A DNA stretch of 64,000 nt from Candidatus Poribacteria bacterium. Lineage in GTDB: Bacteria > Poribacteria > WGA-4E > WGA-3G. The first letter of the stretch is position 1; each line of letters opens with the position of its first letter. Location: positions 1 through 64,000 of the forward strand of contig JAPOQK010000024.1 in assembly GCA_026710795.1 (NCBI GenBank). Reading direction: 5' to 3'. The notes under the pieces were generated by a model. It saw nothing but the letters and a program-made list of their open reading frames with translations. It did no database searches and was not told the origin of the DNA. Positions 61,414 to 64,000 of the stretch are shown here, in pieces. The translations under genes were made by a program, and so were the position numbers.

Positions 61414-61832
61414 AGTATTTATGAGATGCCCAAAAAGGTGCTTCCATCAAAATCATTAACAGTACCAATGTAGAATAATTTCTAAACTTTACCATATATA
61501 AGGTAATAGGCATACTCCTCTACCGTTACTTATTCTATATGCAGCTTTGCAAGAACAAGGTTTCATGGTAATTGGGTAATTTCTTTTTTCAGAAGAATAC
61601 CGAAACAGTTTACAACAAAACACTGTTAAAAAAGAAATCAACAGGTTTGTGAAAATGGGGTGTGTAAATATTTTTGCATCAATTAAACCAACTTTCATGC
61701 TGGCATGCTTATTTTTTCGATGCTGACAAAAAACTGAAAACTGAAAACTACATAAAACATATTGGATATATATTGTTCCAAAATCCACAACCCCTTCCAA
61801 CCCTCAATAACACGTGTTATAATACTATCACT

Positions 61833-61874
61833 ATGAAAAACACAACAACCCACAAATCCAACATCGCCGTATTC
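61833..61874 (+). repeat. Truncated copy R0 of the leader module
   Basis: ATGAAAAACACAACAACCCACAAATCCAAC resembles ATGAAAACAACCCATAAATCCAG in R1/R2; abuts a REP-like repeat. Confidence 0.5.
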
Positions 61875-61905
61875 GTAGGTCGGAGCGAGCAAAGCGAACT
61901 ACGAC
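61875..61905. repeat. REP-like palindrome
   Basis: GTAGGTCGGAGCGAGCAAAGCGAACTACGAC. Confidence 0.75.
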
Positions 61906-61943
61906 ATCTTACATTCTGTAGAAGCGACCTCGGACAAATAGCT

Positions 61944-62100
61944 AAAAACAAAAGATACAGTTTTTCAAATTTTTTAAGACACAGTAACCCTGTGAAAACA
62001 ACCCATAAACCCAGACAGACACAACAACGAGATCACAACACAGTAAAGATACAGTCATGTAAAAAAAGGCGCAAAACTGTATCTTTTTTTACGGAGGAAA
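61944..62100 (+). repeat. Duplicated leader module, copy R1
   Basis: Aligns almost gap-free with 62281-62436. Confidence 0.8.
62045..62090 (+). terminator. Terminator-like hairpin in R1
   Basis: AAAGATACAGT...ACTGTATCTTTTTTT. Confidence 0.65.
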
Positions 62101-62112
62101 ATAACACAATTC

Positions 62113-62143
62113 GTAGGTCGGAGCAAGCGAAGTGACCTACGAC
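62113..62143. repeat. REP-like palindrome immediately after R1
   Basis: GTAGGTCGGAGCAAGCGAAGTGACCTACGAC. Confidence 0.75.
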
Positions 62144-62150
62144 AGTATAT

Positions 62151-62247
62151 TAACCCAAGTTGCTACCTAAAAAATATTAGACAGGTGGGATACTATTTTA
62201 ATCAAAAAAAGGCATTATTCTCGAAAATATTGTAGCAACTTGGGTTA
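62151..62247. repeat. 97-bp element bounded by a perfect 16-bp inverted repeat
   Basis: TAACCCAAGTTGCTAC ... GTAGCAACTTGGGTTA. Confidence 0.8.
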
Positions 62248-62280
62248 TATTAGACAATTCAAAAATAGACAAAATCAAGC

Positions 62281-62436
62281 AAAACAAAAGATACCAAATT
62301 TAAATTTTTTCATAGTGAAAAAACCGATGAAAACAACCCATAAATCCAGTCTGGGACTACCACTAGATCACAACACCAAAAAGATACCGTTATGTAAAAA
62401 AAAACACCATACGGTATCTTTTTTATGATGGAGAAA
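62281..62436 (+). repeat. Duplicated leader module, copy R2
   Basis: AAACAAAAGATACC...GATGAAAACAACCCATAAATCCAG...AGATCACAACACCAAAAAGATACCGT shared with R1. Confidence 0.8.
62380..62424 (+). terminator. Terminator-like hairpin in R2
   Basis: AAAGATACCGT...ACGGTATCTTTTTT. Confidence 0.65.
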
Positions 62437-62440
62437 TTCA

Positions 62441-62560
62441 ATGAAATTACAAGATAAACAATTCACAGTCAAATATGATGTCCGAAGTCTTGGGCATGGT
62501 GTTTCCATCTCTTCTTTATGCAAAAAACTTTACACACCCGTGAAAATGAACTGTTTTTAA
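62441..62560 (+). CDS. Possible 39-aa small ORF after R2
   Basis: ATGGAGAAATTCA then ATG; MKLQDKQFTVKYDVRSLGHGVSISSLCKKLYTPVKMNCF*; too short for the supplied ORF track. Confidence 0.35.
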   Translation: MKLQDKQFTVKYDVRSLGHGVSISSLCKKLYTPVKMNCF

Positions 62561-62582: not shown

Positions 62583-64000
62583 ATGAAATCCTCACGTTTC
62601 TTGATATTCACAGTAATTTATGTTTTAATCTGCTGTTTTACATCAATTGCACAAGATAACGCACAAATAGGATTACCTGAAGGGGTTATAGCACGACTTG
62701 GCAAAGGTTCGCTGGGTGAAATCCGCTTTTCTCCAGATGGAAGTAAACTTGCAGTTTCAACTTCTCTCGGAATCTGGTTCCACGACCCACAAACTGGGAA
62801 AGAGTTGGAATTGCTGCGACATCCTAACATAAGATATCCATACGCTTTTGCATTTTCTCCTGATGGCAACACAATCGCTATAGGTGTTAGAGAGAAAAAG
62901 CAAAAGTCAAGCGGAAGTATTAGGTACCCAGTAGCATTATGGAATGTCACTACAGGAAAAGAAAAAGAAATGCCTCTTGGACACTTGCACAGAGTTAGAT
63001 CCATTGCATTTTCTCCTGACGGAATTTATGTCGCTTCTGTTGGAGGGTTTGCAAACACCGGTCACTTATGGAACACACAAACAGGAGAAAGCATAGCCAT
63101 AAAAAGAATGCATGCAAAAGGCGTGAGTTTAGTTCTGTTTTCTTTGGATGGACCAACTTTTGTTACCAAGGGGTACGACAACGCAGCATATCTGTGGGAT
63201 GGAAAAACGGGTAATCATAAACTCACACTTACTGCACATTCAGAGCAAGTTTCTTCTGTTGCATATACTCCAGATGGTAAGAATATTGCAACAGGAAGTA
63301 GGGATGGAACGATTCGGTTATGGGATGCCGCCACTGGAAAACATAAAGACACACTGACGTCCGACAAAGGAAGTGCCAGGTCTCTCGTATACTCTCCTGA
63401 TGGAAAGACAATCGCCAGCGGAACAGTAAGCGGTGATGTGCAATTATGGAACACACAAACATCAACACTAAAATCCACTCTCTCTGGACATACAGGAAGA
63501 GTTGAATCTGTTGCTTACTCTCCCGATGGAAATACTATTGCTTCTGCCAGTAGAGATACAGTGCGATTGTGGAATGCTGCCACTGGCAAAACTAAAGCCA
63601 TACTAACAGGATATATGCGTATCAACTCCGTCGCATATTCTCCCAATGGAACTACGATTGCTACTGGAAGTGGAAATAACACGGTGCGATTGTGGGATAC
63701 AAAATCAGGGAGAATAAAAAACACTTTTACTGCTTTTTCCGGTTACGGAAGAATTACCAAAGTAACCTATTCTCCCGATGGAAAAACAATTGCTGTGGCA
63801 AGACCTTTTAGTACAGTTTTCTTGTTAGATGCGCAAACCGGAAAACGTAAAGCCACACTCAAGCATTTCGGTTTGATTGATGAGATTTTTAATGTAATTC
63901 AGGATCGTGAGTATGATATAACTACTCTGACGTATTCCTCTGATGGCAACACAATCGTTACAGGATTAGATTGTTATACTCATGAAAAAGGAACGGTGTT
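62583..64000 (+). CDS. Secreted WD40 repeat protein, runs off the window end
   Basis: AAGGAGATATACCGCC ATG; MKSSRFLIFTVIYVLICCFTSIAQDNAQIGLPEGVIARLGKGSLGEIRFSPDG...; frame open to base 64000, absent from the supplied ORF track because no stop is reached. Confidence 0.92.
   Translation, partial: MKSSRFLIFTVIYVLICCFTSIAQDNAQIGLPEGVIARLGKGSLGEIRFSPDGSKLAVSTSLGIWFHDPQTGKELELLRHPNIRYPYAFAFSPDGNTIAIGVREKKQKSSGSIRYPVALWNVTTGKEKEMPLGHLHRVRSIAFSPDGIYVASVGGFANTGHLWNTQTGESIAIKRMHAKGVSLVLFSLDGPTFVTKGYDNAAYLWDGKTGNHKLTLTAHSEQVSSVAYTPDGKNIATGSRDGTIRLWDAATGKHKDTLTSDKGSARSLVYSPDGKTIASGTVSGDVQLWNTQTSTLKSTLSGHTGRVESVAYSPDGNTIASASRDTVRLWNAATGKTKAILTGYMRINSVAYSPNGTTIATGSGNNTVRLWDTKSGRIKNTFTAFSGYGRITKVTYSPDGKTIAVARPFSTVFLLDAQTGKRKATLKHFGLIDEIFNVIQDREYDITTLTYSSDGNTIVTGLDCYTHEKGTV

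Follow-up and report, generated by a model that had tools for sequence, protein, structure and literature searches.

The locus and its MITE-like element

The window, a stretch of 64,000 nucleotides from a Candidatus Poribacteria bacterium (contig JAPOQK010000024.1, assembly GCA_026710795.1), carries two repeat modules, R1 and R2, inside an 882-bp MITE-like element (61658-62539) that lies upstream of a WD40 gene. The features identified at the locus are as follows.

61649-61657, no strand: left target-site duplication GTGAAAATG, identical to 62540-62548
61658-61682, plus strand: left terminal inverted repeat GGGTGTGTAAATATTTTTGCATCAA of 25 nt, with 88% complementarity to 62515-62539
61795-61823, plus strand: predicted sigma-70-like promoter, with TTCCAA (weak -35), 17-nt spacer and extended -10 TGtTATAAT (61815-61823); from sequence, kept in the copies of the same genome
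61833-61870, plus strand: ATGAAAA...ACAACCCA(C/T)AAA segment in a third, incomplete copy, where the transcript presumably begins (repeat comparison)
61945-62109, plus strand: module R1 (at least 43 relatives in the same genome at E<1e-10)
61951-61961, plus strand: R1 arm1 AAAGATACAGT (sequence)
62045-62055, plus strand: R1 arm2 AAAGATACAGT, a direct copy of arm1 (hairpin pattern search)
62076-62086, plus strand: R1 arm3 ACTGTATCTTT, complement of arm1 and arm2 (pattern search and covariation)
62093-62097, plus strand: R1 Shine-Dalgarno (SD)-like GGAGG, with no start codon 3' of it (sequence)
62281-62445, plus strand: module R2 (repeat alignment, relatives in the same genome, covariance-model matches)
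62287-62295, plus strand: R2 arm1 AAAGATACC (sequence)
62380-62390, plus strand: R2 arm2 AAAGATACCGT (hairpin pattern search)
62411-62421, plus strand: R2 arm3 ACGGTATCTTT, then a T run (hairpin pattern search)
62430-62433, plus strand: R2 SD-like GGAG, with start ATG at 62441 (sequence)
62441-62560, plus strand: relic ORF MKLQDKQFTVKYDVRSLGHG... of 39 aa, a truncated HKEFAV protein start that crosses the right end of the element (full-length relatives)
62515-62539, minus strand: right terminal inverted repeat TTTATGCAAAAAACTTTACACACCC (repeat comparison)
62540-62548, no strand: right target-site duplication GTGAAAATG (sequence)
62583-63998, plus strand: WD40 gene, running off the window, with its start codon 43 nt past the element (ORF list, neighbour-gene survey)

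R1 (61964-62089) and R2 (62299-62424) align over 126 nt without gaps at 76% identity, as expected from the preliminary description of a nearly gap-free duplicated leader module. Each module follows the same plan of two direct copies of a word (arm1 and arm2) and one reverse complement (arm3), and A and C predominate in the stretch separating arm1 from arm2, which has one small hairpin at most. The distal hairpins (62045-62086 and 62380-62421) and the compensatory A-T to C-G change between them are as originally described; zero chance matches to the hairpin pattern are expected in the window, and the feature is not due to chance, given the copies in the same genome and the recurrence of this change with many other words. 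A second upstream left arm was indeed found in both modules, but that of R2 matches over only 9 nt. Similarly, both copies have the SD-like site, but only that of R2 is followed by a start codon. The feature is wider than first described, comprising the element and its 9-bp target duplications.

The element has terminal inverted repeats of 25 nt (88%) that open with GGGTGTGTAAA, is flanked at the window copy by a perfect 9-bp duplication, and is multicopy without a transposase gene, its sole ORF being the relic. Its left end is also present in other copies of the same genome. In the two other complete copies there, the target duplication matches at 7/9 positions in one and is absent in the other, which counts against the element explanation. 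No autonomous relative was found in this genome (94% complete), as neither an IS256-type nor the ISKra4 transposase of the type seen in genome G008 was detected; the IS256 transposase (PF00872) was rejected as mobiliser on account of its absence. In G008 (locus L103), an ISKra4-family transposase (NF033572, E 2.3e-73) lies behind the same end GGGTGTGTAAAG, 40 bp after a module, and judging from these ends a transposase of this type may have moved the element. The GGGTGTGTAAAG end and the 9-bp duplication are shared with ISKra4-family MITEs, a likeness that comes from the ends only, and the matching transposase stands beside a module in G008 whereas the genome of the window has none.

Correia elements, which are MITEs of Neisseria, have terminal inverted repeats, lie mainly immediately 5' of genes and carry sigma-70-like promoters (PMC10969869). 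The Poribacteria element is likewise non-autonomous, with terminal inverted repeats, gene-upstream sites and a predicted sigma-70-like promoter, but it is longer (882 bp), carries one or two modules of in-step words before the SD site, is strongly one-directional and descends from the leader of a specific protein gene.

Between R1 and R2, a perfect 16-nt inverted repeat (TAACCCAAGTTGCTAC/GTAGCAACTTGGGTTA, 62151-62166 and 62232-62247) encloses about 65 nt; the R1-R2 gap holds similar insertions in other copies, and this is probably a nested small mobile element. A REP-like palindrome, ATTCGTAGGTCGGAGCGAGCGAAGCGACCTACGACA, occurs at 61871-61906 and 62109-62144 and around many other copies.

Covariation and folding of the words

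The words covary strongly in both pairings. In a 33-row alignment, double changes were found at 7 of 11 pairs for arm2:arm3 (52 cells versus 13.6 when shuffled) and likewise at 7 of 11 for arm1:arm3 (45 versus 13.0), and a wider set of 100 modules gave 181 double-changed cells against 69.5 expected. The covariation in both stems, which the preliminary description had proposed to check with further genomic copies, is real. In the R2B copies, arm1 pairs with arm3 at 11/11 positions and arm2 with arm3 at 10/11. Moreover, in 61 of 160 modules the arm2 6-mer is also present in the arm1 region of that module, versus 4.0% for the arm1 regions of other modules. Among nine copies of one G008/G014 module, which differ by 6-13% elsewhere, four word sites read either C,C,C,G (five copies) or A,A,A,T (four copies) with no intermediate, and this four-site switch is one event on the tree. 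The words seen include AAAGATACAGT, AAAGATACCGT, AAGGTTACCGT, AAGGTTACGGT, AACCGTACC, AACCGTCCC and AACTGTACC, with TGTTACA and CTGTACA elsewhere.

Two properties of the words count against a pure stem view. Across 42 distinct hairpins there are 7 G-U pairs versus 29 A-C mismatches, a pattern not expected of a helix maintained solely at the RNA level. Some sister-genus modules have an inverted arm1, and extra inverted word copies occur 3' of the hairpin there, orientations for which a simple switch of three arms has no use.

In folding calculations, the two pairings of R1 are near-equal (arm1:arm3 at -22.9 and arm2:arm3 at -20.4 kcal/mol), while R2 favours arm2:arm3 (-29.7 versus -21.5 kcal/mol for arm1:arm3); z was -2.2 for R1 and -4.3 for R2. 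As R1 prefers arm1:arm3 and R2 arm2:arm3, the two modules might work one after the other, the first bistable and the second terminator-like. An alternative, antiterminator-like pairing is present inasmuch as arm1:arm3 covaries and the R1 energies are near-equal. The terminator-like hairpin with a T run reported previously stands at this locus, but is probably not general in the family: the run at the stem end is at least 5 in 73 of 151 hairpins and at most 4 in the other 78, so intrinsic termination would not be general. With transcription attenuators the modules share a 5'-leader hairpin, followed by a U-run in part of the copies, and an alternative upstream partner; they differ in that a single word, repeated directly and covarying, supplies the competing strands, that some hairpins lack the U-run and that no sensor was found. 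A riboswitch was rejected, as no aptamer-like core was seen between arm1 and arm2.

Family range, downstream genes and the associated protein

R1 and R2 belong to a family of short mobile cassettes, not described before, in sponge-associated Poribacteria. These cassettes set a predicted promoter and a self-complementary leader before dozens of unrelated genes, and in them one short word, present at least three times, changes in step between copies. The copies in the genome of the window, found by blastn, follow the order R1-type then R2-type where the assembly allows, with contigs often stopping beside modules; many are degraded with truncated ORFs, and in an extra subfamily the relic ORF is intact over 24 codons. 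Of the 73 genomes searched in the order, 35 have modules that the covariance model matched, all in just two genera of Candidatus Poribacteria, which are sisters, and several genomes have at least 40 copies. Nothing relevant was found in the literature on Poribacteria repeats. Rfam gave no module match at gathering score, only weak chance microRNA matches, and sequence and fold searches of Rfam, PDB and PHROGs returned nothing convincing for either module or protein.

A position upstream of a gene and in the same direction, noted at the outset for the window, holds genome-wide. The next gene is co-directional for all 29 copies of the same genome, for 38 of 40 among the matches listed in a complete genome (G009), and for 149 of 157 modules from 33 genomes among the matches listed (tandem modules being entered separately), with the gene start at a median distance of 212 nt. 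The downstream genes are functionally unrelated. Some leaders are common to orthologues in different species, including those before a MetH-like gene (G000 and G009), gltB (G008 and G009), an oxidoreductase gene (G000, G009 and G024) and Hen1 (four genomes). In the sister genus, the word is GATACC or GTTACC in related leaders at the Hen1 locus.

This Hen1 gene is of the RNA-repair type, and the four genomes in which it has a family leader belong to the sister genus (L130, L138, L142, L153).

The 3' tail of the element, opening with ATGAAATTACAAGATAAA, corresponds to the beginning of a gene, cut short here but complete at other loci, which encodes a protein of about 155-280 aa with the signature MKLQEKHKEFAVKCFARFMTRAEVVEAFMEEF...FPxKYRxLFNxTRxEY. 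The intact gene was found in 42 of the 73 genomes of the order and 42 of the 85 of the phylum, both times in the two module-bearing genera, and the 45 loci from a GTDB scan are all named Poribacteria. Most intact genes have a module directly upstream, and in 25 aligned genes the distal hairpin lies 13-31 nt 5' of the ATG; the gene is kept together with its leader at a protein identity of 29-47%. By sequence comparison, the module originates from the leader of this Poribacteria-specific gene and not from the WD40 gene, upstream of which the preliminary description had placed it.

Of the 25 members, 24 have an N-terminus that resembles DUF2280 (best E 2.4e-6; the first four scanned were below the Pfam cut-off). 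The predicted model is confident (pLDDT 84) and all-helical, with two N-terminal helices, a helix of 92 residues (56-147) and a C-terminal bundle, and fold searches returned no structural match to it. The protein is, as modelled, a Poribacteria-only, DUF2280-like helix-turn-helix (HTH) with a long coiled coil. A prophage of A. baumannii has a DUF2280 gene ahead of that for the terminase large subunit (PMC7760358); the likeness to such phage proteins covers the N-terminal ~40 residues, whereas searches by sequence and by fold gave no match for the remainder of the Poribacteria protein.

A type III toxin-antitoxin system was considered because of the layout of RNA repeats, terminator and gene. 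The toxin fold known for that type differs from the helical HTH/coiled coil modelled here, and this candidate was rejected.

In REPIN-RAYT systems, many dispersed hairpins share ancestry with sequence flanking a gene of which each genome has one or few copies (PMC8049555). The modules are likewise dispersed hairpins related to the flank of a low-copy gene, but the elements carry a predicted promoter, are co-directional with genes and much longer, and the protein gave no profile match to the Y1 tyrosine transposase, only the DUF2280-like N-terminus.

The single intact HKEFAV gene in the genome of the window (L263:3058-3744, minus strand) is closely followed, in the same direction, by a Wza-like exopolysaccharide export gene. 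Tandem HKEFAV genes were seen in G024, G007:C16 and G011:C187, the second G024 copy with its own leader module.

Proposed mechanism and rival explanations

That R1 and R2 form a cis-regulatory leader is well supported. The reading that we prefer, at a probability of roughly one half, is that tandem leader modules are carried on a non-autonomous element, that the pairing choice of arm3 sets downstream output and that the protein may read the word. The 882-bp element would have inserted just upstream of the WD40 gene, and since it carries its own predicted sigma-70 promoter, transcription could be driven through both modules into that gene. Pairing of arm3 with arm2 would form a short hairpin that resembles a terminator in those copies with a U-run behind it, while pairing with arm1 would form a long-range stem, and the choice would set the amount of RNA or translation reaching the downstream gene. 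The factor involved may be the HTH/coiled-coil protein, which would recognise the word. We infer promoter activity, control by pairing or binding and the role of the protein from the sequences. The missing start codon after the SD site of R1 counts against the switch explanation. Ribosome-mediated attenuation would be no more than a candidate mechanism, given the U-run found in only part of the family, the leader frame devoid of a coding signature and the scarcity of wobble pairs relative to A-C mismatches.

Alternatively, though with rather lower probability, the word could be a binding site, in DNA or nascent RNA, for the HTH/coiled-coil dimer or another factor in either orientation, with the leaders forming a regulon and the word drifting with the recognition surface. 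The scarcity of G-U pairs, the U-run that is not general and the sister-genus orientations make such a protein-recognised word a serious rival. It would suit words kept in direct and inverted copies (three to five or more per module), the agreement of direct copies where arm3 diverges (first G008/G014 module, arm1=arm2' 10/11), and the DUF2280-like N-terminus and helical model. It would also suit residue 11 of the protein, which is V with TGTTA words and A with other words across 25 aligned loci, an association confounded with phylogeny. However, the words lie just 5' of the SD, far from the promoter, and the protein gene of the genome itself has TGTACC words while the dispersed copies have GATAC or GTTACC.

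That the modules are selfish leftovers is unlikely. Under this explanation the words would be kept in step by templated mutation (quasipalindrome correction, direct-repeat conversion) with no host function, and orientation would reflect insertion preference. The MITE-like ends with target duplication, the many degraded copies and the strict Watson-Crick pairing that templated copying would give are consistent with it, whereas the co-directional placement among the modules listed, the different words in leaders of orthologous genes from different species and the joint conservation of protein gene and leader are not. Very improbable is a coding origin of the R1/R2 conservation, either as decayed coding sequence, named in the preliminary description as a refutation, or as the overlapping leader peptide suggested there. 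Many copies do keep the frame open and the 3' tail is a truncated gene start, but substitutions among R1 copies (33/66/32 by codon position) lack a third-position excess and thus indicate no coding constraint on the overlapping frame; moreover, frames are cut at different points, and arms in different frames of one module nevertheless covary.

A broader picture is offered as tentative. In it, protein and leader would constitute a hitherto unknown regulatory system that acts across the whole genome in Poribacteria, the word being a reprogrammable address that drifts in step and is spread by transposition as a promoter-plus-switch before dozens of genes per genome. A transposable element, a leader with a concerted direct-direct-inverted word and an orphan DNA-binding-like protein gene as source are seldom joined. 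The modules offer a natural series of many already solved 'compensatory mutation experiments', make the rewiring of dozens of bacterial genes by moving one leader testable, and draw attention to 5' leaders as a large class that lacks annotation in Poribacteria, a phylum for which we know of no cultured model.

Further repeat arrays were also observed. At L098 and L108, additional tandem modules with the words CGAACC and CGTACC lie 5' of the first module, with a strong TTGACA/TATAAT promoter ahead of each array. A second chain of in-step words (CGTCAC/GTGACG, for example ACGTCACATGTGACGT) was seen at L319-L330, L126 and L135-L138, placed either beyond codon 24 in the relic ORF or behind modules of the sister genus, and is possibly a second module type.
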